A stretch of DNA of 64,000 bases from Paramesorhizobium deserti. Lineage in GTDB: Bacteria > Pseudomonadota > Alphaproteobacteria > Rhizobiales > Rhizobiaceae. The notes beneath the pieces were generated by a model. The model made no database searches. It was not told the origin of the DNA and saw nothing but the letters and a program-made list of their open reading frames with translations. Of the stretch, positions 19,271 to 57,121 are shown one piece after another (the stretch's first letter is position 1; each line of letters opens with the position of its first letter). A program made the position numbers and the translations under genes. The stretch covers positions 62,001 through 126,000 of the forward strand of contig NZ_LNTU01000023.1 in the NCBI RefSeq assembly GCF_001558695.1, written 5' to 3'.

Positions 19271-20992
19271 TCAGCTGAAGAAATACAATTGGTTGAGCGC
19301 AATGGTCTTTGGCGGATCGACCGTGGCGTGGACGCCGTCCACGGTGACGGCGAAGGTCTGCGGATTGACGTCGATCTTTGGCAGGTAAGCGTTGCGCACC
19401 ATGTGCTCCTTACCAAGCACCCGCGTGTTTTCGACCGGAATGACCATGCGGTTGAGCTCGTACTTCTCCTTCACGCCGGCATCATATGCGGCGCGGGAGA
19501 CAAAGCTGATGCAGGTCTTCGGCAGGGCCGTTCCGTATGCGCCGAACATCGGGCGATAGTACATGGGCTGCGGAGTGGGCAGCGAGGCATTGGGATCGCC
19601 CATATTGGCCCAGACGATCATGCCGCCCTTGATCACCATCTTCGGTTTGGCGCCGAAGAAGGCCGGCGACCAAAGGACGAGATCGGCCACTTTTCCGGGC
19701 TCGATGGAACCGATCACATGCGAAAGTCCGGCTGTGATCGCCGGATTGATCGTTACCTTGGCCAGATAGCGCAGCACACGGAAATTGTCGTTGCCGGGTG
19801 CGTCCTCCGGGAGCTTGCCCCGGGCACGCTTCATCGCGTCGGCGGTCTGAAAGGCGCGGAGGAAATTCTCTCCGATACGGCCCATGGCCTGCGAGTCGCT
19901 GCCGATGATGGAAATCGCCCCCATATCATGGAGAACGCTTTCGGCAACAATCGTCTCGCCGCGGACGCGGCTTTCGGCAAAAGCCACATCGGAAGGGATC
20001 TTCGGATTGAGGTTATGACAGACCATGATCATGTCGAAAAGTTCCGCCACGGAATTGACGCCGGCCGGCAGCGTCGGGTTCGTCGAACTGGGCAGGACGT
20101 TCCTCTGGCCGACGACCTTCAGAAGATCTGGCGCATGGCCACCGCCGGCGCCCTCGCTGTGGAATGTATGGATGGTCCGCCCGTCGAAAGCCGCGATCGT
20201 ATCTTCGACGTAACCGGCCTCGTTGAGCGTATCCGTATGAATGGCGACGGAGACGTCGTATTCATCGGCGATGGTGAGGCAGGAGCGGATCGTAGCCGGG
20301 GTGGTTCCGTAATCCTCGTGGACCTTGAAGCCGGCGGCGCCCGCCTTCAGCTGCTCGACGAGTGGTGCGGTGCCCGTCGAATTGCCCTTGCCGCAGAAGC
20401 CGACATTGATGGGGATATTCTCGATGGCCCGCAGCATCATCTCCATGTTCCACGGACCATTGACCGAGGTCACGCCGTTCGAGCCGTCGGCGGGACCGAT
20501 CCCGCCGCCCCAAAGCGTTGTGATACCGTTGCTGAGAGCCGCATAGGTTTGCTGCGGGGAAATGAAGTGGACATGGGTATCCATGCCGCCCGCCGTCAGG
20601 ATCAGATGCTCACCGGAAATGGCGTCGGTGGATCCGCCCGTCGTCAGACCAGGGGTAACACCATCCATGGTGCTGGGATTGCCGGCTTTTCCGATGCCGA
20701 CGATGCGGCCGTTCCTGATACCGACATCGGCCTTCACCACACCCAGCATAGGTTCGAGGATCGTCACATTGGTGATGACGAGGTCGAGGCAGCCAGCCTC
20801 CTGGGTCAGGAGGCTGTCGGAGCCCATGCCGTCGCGCAGGGTCTTGCCGCCGCCATATTGCAGCTCGTCACCATAGACGGCTCGCAGATCCTGCTCGATC
20901 TCGACATAGAGATCGGTATCGGCCAGGCGAATCTTGTCGCCCACCGTGGGGCCGTAGAGATCAGCATATTGGCGGCGGGATATCTGGGTCAT
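19271..20992 (-). CDS. ureC: Urease subunit alpha (catalytic)
   Basis: The catalytic subunit, 573 residues, hydrolysing urea to ammonia and carbamate at a dinickel site. All active-site residues are visible at the Klebsiella positions plus six: His140 and His142 (THVHF), the carbamylated Lys223 ([10 protein letters not shown]), His252 ([10 protein letters not shown]), His278 ([10 protein letters not shown]), Asp366 (GSDSQAMG), and the flap Cys325-His326 (MVCHNLN). Nothing suggests inactivation. It lies 47 bases after ureB. Confidence 0.98.
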
Positions 20993-42823: not shown

Positions 42824-43516
42824 ATGATGAAGTCCTTTAAGGCGCTCTTTGCCATTGCCGCTCTGGCAAGTGCATCGATGGTAGCGATTTCGGTTTCGGC
42901 GGAAGCCGCCGAACGGAATAAGCGTCCGATCGCCACCACGAAGGTCAGCACGACCTATCAGCAGGGAAATACCGTTCGCAAGGTTCGCAACGTTACCCGG
43001 TATCGGGACGTCGAGCGTCCGCGCACCGTGACGCACACGAGGCGTATCGTGAACGTCACGCGTGTCCAGCCGGTTACGCGCGTCAACACGGTCACCCGCG
43101 TCCATAACAGGACCGCGGTGATCCGCGAAAACCGTTATGGTTCGCAGACGAACGTCCTTCCCACCCGCCATATCCGGACGGGCAAGACGGTCGTCAATCG
43201 CGCTAACGTGCGTCCGACCTCCGAGACAGTCTACCGTTACAAGACCGTTCGGAAGGTGAACAACGTCACCCGTTACCGCGATGTCAACAACACCCGCTAT
43301 GTGCGTCACGTCAACCGCATCGTGAAGGTCAATCGCGTTCAGCCGGTCGTGCGTGAGAATGTTGTCACGCGCATTCACGAGCGTCCCCGTGTCGTCACCC
43401 GCAACCAGTACGTCAACCGCGTGGAATATCTGCCGGAGCGTACGATCCGTACCGCAAAGACGATCCGGGTCAATGACGGCGTCCGTCGCAATAAGCGCGC
43501 TTACAGCGACTACTAA
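42824..43516 (+). CDS. Secreted Val/Arg-rich protein with internal duplication
   Basis: A 230-residue protein with a signal peptide (cleavage around AEA, residue 29). The mature chain is extremely basic and full of alternating V-x-R steps (NVTRYRDV, RIVNVTRVQPVTRV). Residues 50-123 and 141-214 are two ungapped 74-residue repeats, each starting TVRKV.NVTRYRDV and ending LP..(T/H)IRT.KT. The alternating pattern suggests beta strands or a fibrous, surface- or nucleic-acid-binding role (inference). The ribosome site AGGAGAG is well placed. A strong terminator follows. No family recognised. Confidence 0.75.
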   Translation: MMKSFKALFAIAALASASMVAISVSAEAAERNKRPIATTKVSTTYQQGNTVRKVRNVTRYRDVERPRTVTHTRRIVNVTRVQPVTRVNTVTRVHNRTAVIRENRYGSQTNVLPTRHIRTGKTVVNRANVRPTSETVYRYKTVRKVNNVTRYRDVNNTRYVRHVNRIVKVNRVQPVVRENVVTRIHERPRVVTRNQYVNRVEYLPERTIRTAKTIRVNDGVRRNKRAYSDY

Positions 43517-43553
43517 GTCTGTCTATTCCGCAATGGAATAGTCGGTTTGAATT

Positions 43554-43588
43554 GACGGCGGGTCGTTCTCGACCCGCCGTCATCTTTT
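43554..43588 (+). terminator. Rho-independent terminator after the repeat protein gene
   Basis: GACGGCGGGTCG (43554-43565), loop TTCT, CGACCCGCCGTC (43570-43581), followed by ATCTTTT. A perfect 12-bp stem. Confidence 0.8.
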
Positions 43589-43611: not shown

Positions 43612-43725
43612 TTACATCGAGGTGCCGCGCAGAAAATTGAATGCAAGAGCGATCGCCACGAATATCATGGCGTAGATCAGCCAAAGCAATGTGTCTTTCA
43701 ATGCGCGGCGGTTCGTCTCTTTCAC
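43612..43725 (-). CDS. 37-residue single-span membrane protein, paralogue 1
   Basis: A short gene starting at GTG 43725 with GGGGG seven bases upstream. The product starts MKETNRRALKDTLLWLIYAM and ends LRGTSM, with one membrane helix (residues about 12-31) and a short basic N-terminus. It is a clear paralogue of the 37-residue protein encoded at 48616-48729: 21 of 37 positions are identical without gaps, including ETN, LLWL, YA, FV and LRG. TTGACT lies 55 bases before the start in both. Function unknown; proteins of this size often modulate larger membrane complexes (general inference). Confidence 0.75.
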   Translation of the reverse strand: MKETNRRALKDTLLWLIYAMIFVAIALAFNFLRGTSM

Positions 43726-43772
43726 TATCGGCCCCCAGATGAATTGTGGGCACAAGATTGTATGTCGATTAA

Positions 43773-43781
43773 AAAGTCAAC
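43773..43781 (-). promoter_or_regulatory. GTTGACTTT motif upstream of small membrane protein 1
   Basis: On the minus strand GTTGACTTT, with the TTGACT beginning at 43780, 55 bases before the GTG start; TACAAT follows after 12 bases. The same motif and the same 55-base distance occur upstream of paralogue 2. Could be a -35 element or an activator site. Confidence 0.45.
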
Positions 43782-43925
43782 TGCGGGTAGCGATTCCGCG
43801 AGAAATTCGTTAATGCGCCGTCGGTTATCTTTTATCCATACGCATGACAGAGCCGCCGTTATTCATAACAGGCGAAGTGCTGCAATCATCGCGCGAAAGC
43901 TGAAATTAGATGTGAGGGAAAGGAA

Positions 43926-43968
43926 GAGGCCCGACCTGGATGATGGTTGCGGGTGGGGGTCGGGCCTC
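43926..43968. repeat. GC-rich hairpin with G-rich loop, copy 1
   Basis: GAGGCCCGACC (43926-43936) and GGTCGGGCCTC (43958-43968) form a perfect 11-bp stem around a 21-base loop containing GCGGGTGGG. A related hairpin is at 49082-49122. No T-run follows. Both lie 200-350 bases upstream of the paralogous small membrane proteins. Confidence 0.55.
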
Positions 43969-44062
43969 AGTGCCGATGGAACATCCGGCTTGCAATTTGT
44001 GCGCTAAATATTGGGTGAGTCGCAACCCTAACAAATGGGGAGAACATTTGTTACTGGCGCTG

Positions 44063-44097
44063 CTCAAAAATACGCAACTGAATGGTTGCTTTTTGAG
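44063..44097 (+). promoter_or_regulatory. Nested palindrome, probable ArsR-type operator 1
   Basis: CTCAAAAA (44063-44070) pairs with TTTTTGAG (44090-44097), and inside it GCAAC (44074-44078) with GTTGC (44085-44089). The GCAAC/GTTGC half-sites recur in operator 2 at the ribosome site of the next gene. Confidence 0.55.
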
Positions 44098-44118
44098 TCG
44101 ATAGTCTTCATGATATAG

Positions 44119-44134
44119 GCAACCAGGAGGTTGC
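44119..44134 (+). promoter_or_regulatory. Palindrome overlapping the ribosome site, probable operator 2
   Basis: GCAACC-AGGA-GGTTGC (44119-44134). The centre contains the ribosome site AGGAGG (44125-44130) of the AHSA1-type gene at 44138, so a protein bound here, or the RNA hairpin itself, would block translation or transcription. Confidence 0.55.
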
Positions 44135-44137
44135 ATC

Positions 44138-44584
44138 ATGACTGATCGTATCGAGAAGAGCATTGATCTGAACGCACCTATCGAGCGGGTTTGGCGGGCA
44201 TTGACCGACCATGAGGAATTCGGTGCATGGTTCCGGGTGCGGTTGAACGGACCCTTCGTGCCGGGAGAAATCTCGCGTGGTCACATCCTATATCCCGGTT
44301 ATGAGCATCTGAACTGGGAAGCGGCCATCAAGCGGATGGACCCGCCGCACTATTTCTCATTCACATGGCATCCTTATGCCATCGATCCGGATGTCGATTA
44401 TTCGCGAGAAGAGCCTACGCTTGTCGAGTTCCGGCTGGAGCCGATATCGACGGGAACGCGTTTGACGGTGATCGAATCCGGTTTCGACTCGCTCCCGAGC
44501 CACCGTCGGCCTGATGCGTTGCGTATGAATGAGGGGGGCTGGGCAGAGCAGATGAAGAATATCGAAGCCCATGTCGACGCATAG
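44138..44584 (+). CDS. SRPBCC/AHSA1 domain protein
   Basis: A 148-residue START/Bet v1-fold protein of the AHSA1 (activator of Hsp90 ATPase-like) group: KSIDLNAPIERVWRALTDHE, FGAWFRVRLNGPFVPGE, YFSFTWHPYAIDPDVDYSRE and GGWAEQMKNIEAHV. The fold makes a hydrophobic ligand cavity; the ligand is unknown. It overlaps the following ArsR gene by 14 bases. This pairing is common in proteobacteria, often tied to response to small molecules. Confidence 0.88.
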   Translation: MTDRIEKSIDLNAPIERVWRALTDHEEFGAWFRVRLNGPFVPGEISRGHILYPGYEHLNWEAAIKRMDPPHYFSFTWHPYAIDPDVDYSREEPTLVEFRLEPISTGTRLTVIESGFDSLPSHRRPDALRMNEGGWAEQMKNIEAHVDA

Positions 44585-44909
44585 CATCCAGACGCGCGAT
44601 CCGGACCCCGCGCCCATATTCGCGGCTTTGGGAGACCGGACCCGCCTCTCGCTGGTGATGAAGTTGAGCGACGGGCAGACGCGCTCGATTGCCAAGCTTT
44701 CAGCGGATACGGAGATCACCCGGCAAGCCGTCACCAAGCATCTTCGCGTACTGGAGAATGCGGGGTTGGTGAGCAGCAGCCGGGTGGGTCGTGAAAGCCA
44801 GTTCGCTTTGCGGCCCGAACCGATCGCGGAGATCAGATCTTATCTCGACGAGGTTTCCCGACAATGGGATGATGCCTTGTCGCGGCTCCGCTCTTTCATC
44901 GAGCAGTGA
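44571..44909 (+). CDS. ArsR-family winged-helix regulator
   Basis: A 112-residue HTH_20/ArsR regulator: IFAALGDRTRLSLVMKLSDG, SIAKLSADTEITRQAVTKHL (recognition helix) and RVLENAGLVSSSRVGRESQF. No metal-binding CxC is present in the usual ELCVCDL position, so it likely senses something other than metal or protein partners. It overlaps the AHSA1-like gene and probably represses the operon through the two GCAAC/GTTGC palindromes upstream (inference). Confidence 0.88.
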   Translation: MSTHSIQTRDPDPAPIFAALGDRTRLSLVMKLSDGQTRSIAKLSADTEITRQAVTKHLRVLENAGLVSSSRVGRESQFALRPEPIAEIRSYLDEVSRQWDDALSRLRSFIEQ

Positions 44910-45041
44910 TCGTCGCGGGCCTTCAGCCGGCTTTAACGGGAGCGTTAATGCGCAGATGTTGGATGTGAAGCCTCGTGGCCTTCCCTGGCGATGATGCCCG
45001 GGATAGGCGTCGCGGAGCATGAGCGAGCTGCCGTTGAGCAT

Positions 45042-45299
45042 TCAGACGGAGGCGGGACTTCTTTTGTCCTGTTCTCTGCGATTATTCTCGATATTCGCTG
45101 CCGCGAAGGCTAAGGCTTCGATATCCCGATAGCCGAGGTTGTAGAGGCGCATTATCTCCCTGGCGAGCCGATCCGTATCCTTGCTTCCGTCCGCCTGCCC
45201 CAGAAGAGCAGCCGATTTATGATAGGCGGCCTGCATGATGCGCCAGTCTTCGCTTGTATAGGCGGATTCGGGGCCAGGATAGCCACCTCTTATCGGCAT
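45042..45299 (-). CDS. Hypothetical small protein
   Basis: An 85-residue soluble protein, starting MPIRGGYPGPESAYTSEDWR, with a helical middle (RLAREIMRLYNLGYRDIEAL) and a polar tail. Not recognised as a named family, but the regular heptad-like helices and coding bias suggest a real gene. Upstream (45300-45550) no obvious operon partner lies on the same strand. Confidence 0.6.
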   Translation of the reverse strand: MPIRGGYPGPESAYTSEDWRIMQAAYHKSAALLGQADGSKDTDRLAREIMRLYNLGYRDIEALAFAAANIENNRREQDKRSPASV

Positions 45300-45551
45300 G
45301 TTGCTCTCCGTTCAACTGGGCTGGACTCTGGGTAAATGCTGCCATGAATGGAGTTGCCTGAGAAAAAAGTGTGGGCCGCACATCGGCAAGAGTCAAACGA
45401 TTTCAGATATTATCGGCGTTTCAGATGTTTGCAATAATAATATAAATAGGCGTGCAACTCGGCGCCACAAAATTGCTGACGCTGAAGTTCTTCTTTAGCC
45501 TTTCTGTTATCATGCAAAACCACCTGGGCTGACAGAAAAAGGCGGTTCCAA

Positions 45552-45718
45552 TTATTTTGGCTGCCGCTTGGCTGTTTCCAGCTCGACTTGCTCCCGCTTC
45601 AGATATTTGCGCGTCACCTCGTCGGCATGATCGGCGAGCCATGCGGCCATGGCTTCCTCCTCATGACAGATTTCCTCGCACGTAGCCACTGATTCAGCCA
45701 ATCATCCATGGTCGCCAT
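45552..45718 (-). pseudogene. Small gene with a probable single-base frameshift
   Basis: The ATG at 45718 has AGGAG seven bases upstream and opens MATMDDWLNQW, but this frame soon becomes implausible. A second frame over the same DNA reads ATCEEICHEEEAMAAWLADH and continues DEVTRKYLKREQVELETAKR to a stop at 45552. The span is 167 bases, one short of a multiple of three, so one lost base near 45690-45702 would restore a protein of about 55 residues. Alternatively a 32-residue protein starts at ATG 45650 (GAGGAGG upstream). Function unknown. Confidence 0.45.
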
Positions 45719-45895
45719 TTTGGGGCTCCTTCTTTCCGGGCGGTGCAGACGCCGCTGTTCAGTCGTGGATTATCTGAACCGGCAGCCTTGCTTCAGGTCC
45801 CGGTCACCAAACAGTGCACGGCGTTAAACTTCCCGGATATGCATTGTTCCGGGTGGCTGGTTCGGGTTTGGATTATTTCGAATGGCGCTGGACTT

Positions 45896-46366
45896 CTACC
45901 AGATCGCCGGTCGGGTAATCATCAGCCAGAAAATGGCGAGGACAGCGCCAAAGGCAGGAAAGCCGAAGGCGAACCAGAGCCGGAAGAGCCTGTGGTAGCG
46001 CGCGGGCAGAACGGCGTTTTTTGCCGCGGCCTCAGTCGCCAGACGCCGCATTTCCATCTGCATCCAGACTACGGGAAGCCAGAAGGCGCCGGTTAGGAGA
46101 TAGAGCAGGATCGACAGGACGATCCAGCCTTCAGTGAGTGGATAACCAAGATGCCACGCAAGCGCGATACCTGTGATGGGCTGTGCGGCGACCGCGGTGG
46201 CCGTGAAAAGAAAGTCTGCAATCACGACCATACGCGCAACGGCGGCAATGATTGCGGCATTGCCCGTCCGGTGCGCCAAAAGCATGAAAAATGCTATGCC
46301 TGCACCGGTACCCAGCAGCACTGCGGCGCCGATCACATGCAGGTATTTGAGAATGAAATAGATCAT
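45896..46366 (-). CDS. DUF2269 family integral membrane protein
   Basis: A 156-residue protein with four membrane helices. The family start MIYFILKYLHVIGAAVLLGT and the LLTGAFWLPVVWMQMEMRRL segment are characteristic of DUF2269, with a conserved His in the first helix. Function unknown. It starts 27 bases after the SDR/DoxX-like gene and is probably in its operon. Confidence 0.85.
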   Translation of the reverse strand: MIYFILKYLHVIGAAVLLGTGAGIAFFMLLAHRTGNAAIIAAVARMVVIADFLFTATAVAAQPITGIALAWHLGYPLTEGWIVLSILLYLLTGAFWLPVVWMQMEMRRLATEAAAKNAVLPARYHRLFRLWFAFGFPAFGAVLAIFWLMITRPAIW

Positions 46367-46393
46367 TGAAGCGGTTCCCGCTTTCCAGGCTCT

Positions 46394-47683
46394 CTAACGC
46401 TCATCCAAAATGGCGAGGGCCACGAAATGTAGCGCCAATATGGGCCAAATCTTCATTAGCGGCCCGAGGGGTTCGTTCCAGAGTTCGGGGAGCAGGATCG
46501 TGCCCGCCACGATATAAAAGAGCGACAGGATGATCGCGGCGTATAGACCCTGCCGGGTGGTCCGGCGATAGGCGATCGCCAGTGCAACGAGAATATCGGC
46601 GATCGCTCCCGCCACCACGCCCGGAGCGGCCAATCCCCCGGTTCGCGCCTGGACCATCAGGTCGACGCCGGTATGAAAGCCACTGGTGAGCGATACAATT
46701 CCGGTGGCGATCCAGAACAACACCAGCACGGCAAGGATCAGAGGTTTGAGGAAATAGAGCTTTGCGAACCAGCGGTCCTGCACCATCACAGGTTTTGCCG
46801 CCAGTGCGGCATCGAGGGATTGGGGGCTGATGCCTGTCAGCCGGTTCCAGTGCGTCGCGTCGCCGATCGCACCGCGGCCAATCTCCTTTGCCGCGGTGGT
46901 TCGCATCGGTGATCGCCACCCGAGAGCCCCGACAAGATCGCCAGCCCGGTAGAGAAGTGCCGAAAGCGGGCGAGGCGCATCGAACTCATGAGCCGGACGC
47001 CATCCCAGCCATCGCCGATAGCTTGCCACGACCCCGCTCATGGTCAGCCTCTGCGGTCCGACCAGCTCGACCGCCACACGTGTGGGAGCGGACGCTTTCA
47101 GGAAGAAAGCGACGGTAGCGGTCACGTCATCGAGCTGAACGACCTGCAAGTCGCCTGTATCCTTCGTGACCGGTAAGACAGGAAGGGCGGCCAAGCCACG
47201 AAAGAGCGCGCTGGCCCCGAAAACAGCTTGGCCCAGCACCACCGCGGGGCGCAGGATAACCCAGTCAAGGTCACGTTCCATCAGAGCCATATCGCCGCGC
47301 AATTTGGTTTCCGAGAAAGCTGATACGTGGCCGCGGTCCACGCCGATCGCGGAAAACTGGATCACTCGCCGAATGCTCAGCTCCTCGCAGGCAAGGAACA
47401 GCGCCGATGCTCCGCTGACGTGGACTCCTTCCGTGTCCTCACGCGGGCTGTTCTGCAGAACACCGACACAATTGACCACCGCCTCGATCCCATGGAGGTG
47501 GGGAATCCAGTCCCGGGGATGCGTGGCCTTTGCCATGTCAAGCGGGATCATGCGCTTAACGGAAACGGGTACGGGGGTGCTACCCGGCCGTATTGCCGCG
47601 GCCACCTCGTGTCCTTCGGCGAAAAGGCGAGCGCATATCGCAGATCCGATCAGACCGGTCGCGCCGGTGACGAGAACTTTCAT
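46394..47683 (-). CDS. SDR-type NAD(P)-binding protein fused to a DoxX-like membrane domain
   Basis: A 429-residue fusion. The N-terminal ~290 residues form an atypical SDR/NmrA-like domain (MKVLVTGATGLIGSAICARL; AVVNCVGVLQNSPRE; VIQFSAIGVDRGHVSAFSET) without a clear YxxxK. The C-terminal ~130 residues hold four membrane helices of DoxX-like type (LKPLILAVLVLFWIATGIVS and on). It is followed by the DUF2269 membrane protein. A membrane-bound redox or quinone-linked role is possible but not shown. Confidence 0.85.
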   Translation of the reverse strand: MKVLVTGATGLIGSAICARLFAEGHEVAAAIRPGSTPVPVSVKRMIPLDMAKATHPRDWIPHLHGIEAVVNCVGVLQNSPREDTEGVHVSGASALFLACEELSIRRVIQFSAIGVDRGHVSAFSETKLRGDMALMERDLDWVILRPAVVLGQAVFGASALFRGLAALPVLPVTKDTGDLQVVQLDDVTATVAFFLKASAPTRVAVELVGPQRLTMSGVVASYRRWLGWRPAHEFDAPRPLSALLYRAGDLVGALGWRSPMRTTAAKEIGRGAIGDATHWNRLTGISPQSLDAALAAKPVMVQDRWFAKLYFLKPLILAVLVLFWIATGIVSLTSGFHTGVDLMVQARTGGLAAPGVVAGAIADILVALAIAYRRTTRQGLYAAIILSLFYIVAGTILLPELWNEPLGPLMKIWPILALHFVALAILDER

Positions 47684-47784
47684 GCCTGCACTCCCTGCCG
47701 CGGTTTCTCTATCGCTTCTTCCTCAATCGGAAAGGAAATCGACTTGTCTCACACTAAAGATAGGGTGAAATCACAACAAAGTAG

Positions 47785-48246
47785 TCACCGCTCGTATACG
47801 CCGACCAGTTCGGCTTCCTCGATCAGGTGTTTTCGCGCCTCCCGCCAGATCTGCTGCGCACCGGCCTTGGCGGGAATATTGAGGTTCGGCACGTCGAGCG
47901 CGGCCAAACGGAAATGATAGTGGTGCGGACCATGCCCCACTGGTGGTTCCGGGCCATCATAGCGGCCATTGCCGAAATCATTCCGGGCATAGCTCAGCGC
48001 ATTGTCATGGCTTGTATCGATGCTTTGAGGCAGCCCCTCGCGGTCAGGTGGGATGTTGTATATCGCGCAATGATAGAAGGTCCCCCTTGGGGCATCGGGG
48101 TCTTCCACAATCAGGACGAAGCTCTGCGTGCCTTCGGGGATTCCCGTCCATTTCAGCGGCGGCATCAGATTTTCGCCATCGCGCACATGTTTGACGGGAA
48201 TGGTTTCGCCTTCGGCAAAGGTCGGACAGGTCAAGGTAAGCGGCAT
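47785..48246 (-). CDS. YbhB/YbcL family (PEBP-like) protein
   Basis: A 153-residue phosphatidylethanolamine-binding-protein fold. It shows the family signature IVEDPDAPRGTFYHCAIYNI (DPDxP plus H) and GPEPPVGHGPHHYHFRLAAL. No signal peptide is present, so it is cytoplasmic. Bacterial members are of unknown function, with suggested kinase-inhibitor or ligand-binding roles. Confidence 0.93.
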   Translation of the reverse strand: MPLTLTCPTFAEGETIPVKHVRDGENLMPPLKWTGIPEGTQSFVLIVEDPDAPRGTFYHCAIYNIPPDREGLPQSIDTSHDNALSYARNDFGNGRYDGPEPPVGHGPHHYHFRLAALDVPNLNIPAKAGAQQIWREARKHLIEEAELVGVYER

Positions 48247-48615
48247 CGGGGTTCCTCTTGAAATTGCGTGAATACGCTTCCGCCGGAACCTTTTCGGCGT
48301 GCCTTGGTTCCCATCAACTGCAGTTTCTGAACCGTTGATGATCCGCTACATGCCTGAGAGGCAACCAAAGAGCCGCTACAAAAGGATGATCAAGAGGGCC
48401 GTCGCGGGCGCAGGGCGAAACCAGAGGCGGCTTATGACACCAAGCCCGCCGGTCGCGAACATGTCGACACGGTAAGCGGGCCGAGCATAACGAAGTCGCG
48501 GCATTCCGTGACGCCGCTTCCAAAGGATGATGAGATTAAGGGGGATGGCGGGAGCCGAATTTCCGATTCTACCAGTACGGGAAACGCCAAAGCCACGCTG
48601 TCTGCGGCGTCTGTT

Positions 48616-48729
48616 TCAGACGATCACACCACGCAGTTCATTGATCGCGATGAAAATCACCACGAAAGCGCAGGCATAGCTCAGCCACAACAACACATCT
48701 CTCAATCCGCGATCGTTTGTTTCCGGCAT
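48616..48729 (-). CDS. 37-residue single-span membrane protein, paralogue 2
   Basis: Starts at ATG 48729 with GGGGG eight to nine bases upstream. The product begins MPETNDRGLRDVLLWLSYAC and ends ELRGVIV, one membrane helix with a short polar N-terminus. It has exactly the same length as the protein at 43612-43725 and 21 identical positions. The upstream GTTGACTTT motif is also at the same distance (TTGACT 55 bases before the start). Two conserved copies with matched promoters strongly argue that both are expressed genes. Confidence 0.75.
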   Translation of the reverse strand: MPETNDRGLRDVLLWLSYACAFVVIFIAINELRGVIV

Positions 48730-48776
48730 TGTTGTGCCCCCAAAAAGTTGTGAGAGATAAATAGTATTATTAACAG

Positions 48777-48785
48777 AAAGTCAAC
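48777..48785 (-). promoter_or_regulatory. GTTGACTTT motif upstream of small membrane protein 2
   Basis: On the minus strand GTTGACTTT with TTGACT beginning at 48784, 55 bases before the ATG; TACTAT follows after 12 bases. Matches copy 1 in motif and spacing. Confidence 0.45.
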
Positions 48786-56629: not shown

Positions 56630-56854
56630 GCAGATCTTGGCCTGATTCCGCTGGTGCAGGCAAGGCAGATCCGATAGCTTGACTTGATATGTTATTACGT
56701 TACAAGACGAGATGTTGAAGGTCGAGATGGTTCGGTTACGGGCCGTTTCGTCGGAGTGAATTCAAGGGGAGCCCAGGCGGGTATTCGGATGAGGTGAAAT
56801 CGTGCCGTCCCTTCATCTTGACGGCAGGCTTCTGACGGGCCTAAAACGTGGGTG

Positions 56855-57073
56855 ACGGTTCCCCGAGGAAGGACTTCCAGGGGATTAATAGGGAACACGG
56901 TGCGGACGACCCAATAGGGACCAAGACCGTGGCTGCCCCCGCAACTGTGAGCGGATTGCCGAGCGTCCTCGTGACGTCCTTCTCCTAGAGGATGTCATGC
57001 CACTGTCGGGTTCATTCCCGACGGGAAGGCAGATGTGAAGCAGATATCCGCAAGCCAGGAGACCTGCCGTCGA
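56855..57073 (+). promoter_or_regulatory. Cobalamin (B12) riboswitch
   Basis: All conserved parts are present in order: the P1/P3 start GACGGTTCCCCG, AATAGGGAAC-ACGGTG, GGCTGCCCCCGCAACTGTGA (the CCCGCAACTGT core), GCCACTG, GGGAAGGC, and the B12 box GCCAGGAGACCTGCC (57054-57068). It binds adenosylcobalamin and turns off the downstream genes when B12 is plentiful. It lies ahead of a 29-codon ORF and an ABC-importer gene pair. Confidence 0.96.
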
Positions 57074-57121
57074 AGTCGAAAAATCCAATTCACGGGCGGG
57101 GTTGCCCGTAGAGGAGACATC

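Follow-up and report, generated by a model that had tools for sequence, protein, structure and literature searches.

KdpF, a protein of about 50 amino acids or fewer with one membrane span, modulates a larger protein. AcrZ and CydX are modulators of larger proteins too. AcrZ, CydX and YohP likewise have about 50 residues or fewer and one predicted span in the excerpts available to us, where YohP stands as a stress-linked example among small single-span bacterial membrane proteins. For S. meliloti, the sections of the published work on which we draw describe 48 novel SEPs, seven of which are predicted to reside in the cytoplasmic membrane; SEP6 and SEP16 carry a predicted transmembrane helix and are found mainly in the membrane (P100) fraction (PMC10117765). 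Given these findings, unannotated small membrane proteins are to be expected in the order. Below we describe a 37-residue family that resembles AcrZ, CydX and YohP in its small size and in having one predicted span.

The window analysed, a stretch of 64,000 nucleotides from Paramesorhizobium deserti, carries two minus-strand frames, copies a and b (Table 1), that a sequence-only reading had proposed as a micro-protein family. Their coordinates, strands and equal length of 37 residues proved to be correct, and upstream of both copies there are indeed GGGGG runs resembling ribosome sites, as well as a TTGACT element that begins at -55. The identity given earlier, 21 of 37 residues, holds if both initiators are read as Met, but the count is 20 of 37 for the peptides as printed. 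Each peptide, used as the query against its own genome, retrieves the other (E values of 1.1e-7 and 2.9e-7). Because of this reciprocal retrieval, and because the composite upstream motif occurs in this genome only at these two genes, the combined features of the two copies are beyond chance. Copies a and b are paralogous genes, and both are probably translated.

Table 1. Coordinates of the paired micro-protein genes and of other features in the window
Feature	Position	Strand	Remarks
Copy a, 37-aa single-span protein	43612..43725	-	GTG start, stop included
Copy b, 37-aa single-span protein	48616..48729	-	ATG start, stop included
GGGGG ribosome-site-like run, copy a	43732..43736	-	begins at -11
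GGGGG ribosome-site-like run, copy b	48737..48741	-	begins at -12
TTGACT element, copy a	43775..43780	-	begins at -55
TACAAT element, copy a	43757..43762	-	18 bases after TTGAC start
TTGACT element, copy b	48779..48784	-	begins at -55
Putative promoter/leader block TACTATTTATCTCTCACAACTT, copy b	48745..48766	-	holds TACTAT element, 48761-48766
85-aa ORF, no Pfam match	45042..45299	-	downstream of copy b, same strand, 6/6 genomes
230-aa protein, no Pfam match	42824-43516	+	convergent with copy a; repeats, apparent signal peptide
Strong hairpin	43553..43582		between copy a and convergent gene 42824-43516
Cobalamin riboswitch	56839-57085	+	110.1 bits
Rfam 5' ureB small RNA match	20539-20839	+	79.8 bits

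Homologues outside the strain, whose absence had been named in advance as evidence against the proposal, were found. A profile search of the genus recovered nine copies in all six genomes, with copy b in each and copy a in three (G000, which is the genome of the window, G002 and G005), where the two copies lie about 4.9, 6.1 and 13.5 kb apart by coordinates, respectively. A scan of named-species genomes, which is not exhaustive in that it missed copy b of G002, located six loci, which we take to be among these nine: two in Phyllobacterium salinisoli and one each in P. phragmitis, P. leguminum, Brucella endophytica and Mesorhizobium sp. RMAD-H1. In a search of 41 genomes with each peptide, covering 40 relatives besides the own genome, E values below 1e-3 were obtained in the own genus only. 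No full-length homologue turned up in the 388 other genomes among 394 searched in the family, the six genus genomes all being positive, or in 384 of 385 genomes of the class, where the own genome alone matched. The profile used on the genus and the family was built from eight copies, lacking that of G001 and with two rows that start one codon early, whereas all nine copies went into the profile for the class and the viral contigs. A profile search of viral contigs and a search of plasmids and phages with copy b as the sole query gave no match, and with a query so short strongly diverged relatives could escape detection. Weaker matches (E up to 0.01) in six of the 388 family genomes and six of the 384 class genomes were set aside as chance. 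These are partial stretches of 12-25 residues, of which 11 of 12 lie inside frames of 185-543 residues and one in a 31-residue frame; those in the family genomes fall inside frames of 445-543 residues. Judged from the sequence sets searched, a single small group of Phyllobacterium-like bacteria accounts for all members of the family found to date.

Comparison of the nine copies indicates selection on the encoded protein. The mean pN/pS is 0.273, compared with 0.892 for permuted columns (sd 0.194, minimum 0.526), and none of 200 permutations was as low as the observed value; a dN/dS near 1, which had been named as a second finding adverse to the proposal, was therefore not what we found. Omega lies between 0.10 and 0.37 in all 18 within-copy pairs, and synonymous sites vary freely (pS 0.25-0.71). 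Among the six copies b, 15, 9 and 30 of 36 columns vary at the first, second and third codon position, respectively, and 8, 4 and 15 vary among the three copies a. All copies a start with GTG and all copies b with ATG. Twelve columns are invariant in the nine rows (M1, D11, L13, W15, L16, Y18, A19, F22, V23, N30, L32 and R33), eight of them within residues 12-30.

This conservation ends where the frame ends. Identity per 15 bases, counted in four of the six copies b, is 0.71-0.87 over +1 to +120 and then 0.23-0.36. The three copies a give values of 0.73-0.96 as far as +105, 0.53 over the stop itself and 0.22-0.49 beyond, such that both groups fall to background just past the stop codon. It could be argued that the frame is incidental and that a regulatory or RNA role maintains the DNA, in keeping with a copy b upstream block whose conservation equals or exceeds that of the frame. 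However, we consider this explanation highly improbable, given that changes favour third codon positions, that pN/pS lies below all permutations and that conservation stops with the frame. There is also no Rfam match at copy b, and no excess of RNA structure was seen: over -25 to +60, none of the nine copies is clearly more stable than shuffled sequences that keep base composition only. On this comparative sequence evidence, we judge that copies a and b are real genes under protein-level selection.

In a tree of the nine sequences, copies a make up one side of a branch with support of 100/100, and we therefore interpret the likeness of the paralogues as common descent kept by selection rather than as two independent finds. 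The tree is unrooted, and the duplication may either predate the whole genus, three species having since lost copy a, or be more recent. If vertical descent is assumed, it would have occurred no later than the common ancestor of copies a in G000, G002 and G005. The duplicated unit would span approximately 175 bp and comprise a promoter-like block, a short leader and the ORF.

The 22-base copy b block, TACTATTTATCTCTCACAACTT, is identical in five of the six genomes and differs by one base in G000, and a search of both strands allowing up to three mismatches finds one site per genome in all six. Across the nine copies, TTGAC-N13-TACWAT maintains a constant 18 bases from start to start, whereas the distance from TTGAC to the start codon varies between 53 and 56 bases; the constant motif distance proposed earlier is therefore a property of the two elements and not of motif and start codon. 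From TTGAC to the G-rich site the distance is 43-45 bases, and among copies a this site reads GGGGG in two of three and GAGGG in G002. Identity among copies a is 0.44 or less before -75, 0.64 from -75 to -60 and 0.89 from -60 to -45. For copies b the ungapped count is spoiled by a one-base shift in two rows, and the block is visible in the alignment. Within G000, copies a and b match at 13 of 40 positions above TTGAC and at 24 of 40 from TTGAC on.

A strict pattern, TTGACNNTN10TACWATYT, is found nine times in the six genomes, in each case at one of the nine genes, which match by construction given that the pattern was derived from them; its reversed control has one site, in G004. In the own genome there are two strict sites, both at copies a and b. 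Because strict sites occur only at the nine genes, the block appears to be a promoter or operator that is both conserved and private. Searches for a wider regulon gave no candidate that we retained. A loose form including GGGG yielded one further site (G001) and one control site (G002) while missing copy a of G002, where GAGGG is found, and GTTGACTTT alone has 15 genome sites compared with 24 for its reversed control. Given that one duplication carried the block along, its match at the two genes is not independent evidence of a regulon. Thus, the matching promoter motif that had been offered in support of a regulated family stands as a conserved block of the family's own, but no third gene of the strict form exists in the own genome. 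More broadly, the earlier proposal of a real, regulated micro-protein family is borne out with respect to real genes, protein-level selection, related copies in five further species and conservation upstream of the frames, but not with respect to a regulon. The family amounts to a single duplicated gene with a promoter-like block that is conserved, unusually rigid and private to it.

A standard sigma-70 promoter does not account for this block. The gap between TTGACT and TACWAT is 12 nucleotides, compared with the 16-18 nucleotides that separate TTGACA-like and TATAAT-like hexamers in standard sigma-70 promoters, and hence the spacing does not fit; the S. meliloti promoter query CTTGAC(N17)CTATAT, as quoted in the excerpt to which we refer, has N17 (PMC2573895). 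A scan of both regions returned no sigma-70-like sites on either strand, and would miss a non-standard promoter. One possible alternative is that TTGAC serves as a -35 element and that, with the help of an activator, a degenerate -10 element lying further downstream is used. It is also conceivable, and in our judgement rather improbable, that a dedicated transcription or sigma factor of a non-standard kind acts at TTGAC-N13-TACWAT, and that its strict sites in this genus serve only the duplicated micro-protein gene. If so, the block would constitute a private switch for a genus-specific membrane peptide.

Given their small size, hydrophobicity and duplication, the copies could be type I toxins, in which a hydrophobic peptide able to depolarise the membrane is held in check by an antisense RNA. 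The zorO-orzO/zorP-orzP pair, as presented in the portion of the source that we cite, is a duplicated type I locus (PMC3919570), and the extreme conservation of the 22-base copy b block would also be compatible with such a system. However, that block, searched for copy b alone, is single-site in every genome, which leaves no second site able to encode a closely matching trans antitoxin, and the freedom of synonymous sites argues against long antisense constraint on the ORF. A structured or occluded leader was not found between -25 and +60, nor a sigma-70-like site on either strand from which an antisense RNA might start, within the limits of that scan for non-standard promoters. Although the family shares a short hydrophobic peptide and duplication with TisB and ZorO-type toxins, it appears to differ from them, in that no leader structure was found between -25 and +60 and the sequence scans gave no antitoxin RNA, and we regard a toxin function as quite unlikely.

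The surroundings of the genes were compared within 8 kb on each side of copy b (4.2 kb downstream in G001). Ten flanking ORFs were scanned, of which seven have Pfam matches (one DoxX-like) and three have none. Neighbours other than the two in Table 1 include AHSA1-like, ArsR, DUF2269, NAD-binding/DoxX-like, PEBP, LacI and M50/CBS proteins, and their order differs between species. The distance between the 85-residue ORF and copy b ranges from roughly 0.2 kb in G001 to roughly 4.6 kb in G002; the ORF has weak relatives (E of 1e-7 to 7e-5) in three of 148 other family genomes, one of which holds three copies. The gene convergent with copy a is seen in five of the six genomes; in G004 the 8 kb on either side of copy b do not contain it. 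Its 230-residue product is probably secreted, and matches at E values of 1e-4 or lower come only from three sampled genus genomes in a set of 151 family genomes. The hairpin between this gene and copy a has its T-rich tail on the plus strand, and thus fits the convergent gene better than copy a. Within 120 bases downstream, strong hairpins follow all three copies a (-27.6, -26.9 and -19.6 kcal/mol) and weaker ones follow all six copies b (-8.7 to -15.2 kcal/mol), these being energies with no shuffled control.

DUF2269 and DoxX-like membrane proteins are encoded between copy b and the 85-residue ORF in G000, G002 and G005. They are weak partner candidates, because the range compared around copy b showed neither of them in the remaining three genomes. 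Their presence in half of the genomes is nevertheless one reason to ask whether the family, instead of regulating, forms a structural part of a respiratory or transport complex much as CydX, CcoM or KdpF does. Its length resembles that of CydX (37 residues; PMC4325964) and CcoM (36 residues; PMC10433244), and a Trp near the span start is also named for CydZ, in each case according to the part of the source consulted. However, we find this assignment unlikely, given the three genomes in which the DUF2269 and DoxX-like genes were not seen within the range compared around copy b, the lack of any cytochrome oxidase, Kdp or efflux component among the seven of ten flanking ORFs with a Pfam match, and a one-genus restriction that would be odd for a universal complex. 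Among families of such subunits, only CcmD was matched, by one of eight members (E 0.22 and 2.1 across Pfam and NCBIfam), and this sole Pfam match was set aside as chance.

Other library matches were dismissed in the same way: five NCBIfam families matched by one member each (best E 0.017, a transporter), one of nine members in PHROGs (E 0.14), and PDB sequences with a best E of 0.15. Cytochrome bd subunit families gave no hit when eight members were compared with Pfam and NCBIfam at E values up to 5, and these libraries presumably contain a cytochrome bd subunit model. PADLOC found nothing for the two window copies and three neighbours, and a query of one literature library for Phyllobacterium and 'small membrane protein' returned no paper.

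We favour the interpretation, with a probability of roughly 55%, that the family is a small single-span accessory or modulator protein, presumably of the inner membrane. All nine copies have one hydrophobic span, with a best 19-residue Kyte-Doolittle mean of 1.99-2.52. Each copy would be transcribed from its own conserved upstream block and translated from its G-rich ribosome site, and the helix would then pack against a larger protein or complex of the membrane, in the way that AcrZ, KdpF and CydX do. Likely contact residues would be W15, L16, Y18, A19, F22, V23, N30, L32 and R33. A one-sided helix stripe of invariant residues is not significant (p = 0.71), and a single contact face is therefore not supported. 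Against an accessory or modulator role, gene order and flanking genes vary between species so that no partner gene emerges, there is no convincing match to a family, solved structure or RNA family, and the lineage restriction would also fit a young gene of dispensable function.

Regardless, these genes show that comparative evidence is able to confirm a gene of only 37 residues that was first read from raw sequence. The family offers two natural paralogues, twelve invariant residues and a compact upstream block, and is small enough for complete mutational dissection. The discovery of a partner would explain how a membrane system is tuned in a lineage-specific way in Phyllobacterium-like bacteria.

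Compared by description, the family is akin to SEP6 and SEP16 in that all are novel small proteins of a Hyphomicrobiales bacterium, but SEP6 and SEP16 are reported, in the sections cited, to be conserved in Hyphomicrobiales (PMC10117765), and the 37-residue family is not. It differs from AcrZ, KdpF, CydX and YohP in having no sequence-family match or linked partner gene and in its confinement, across the sets searched, to a single genus. With no match in the libraries searched, the family is a new, lineage-restricted instance of the small single-span membrane proteins.
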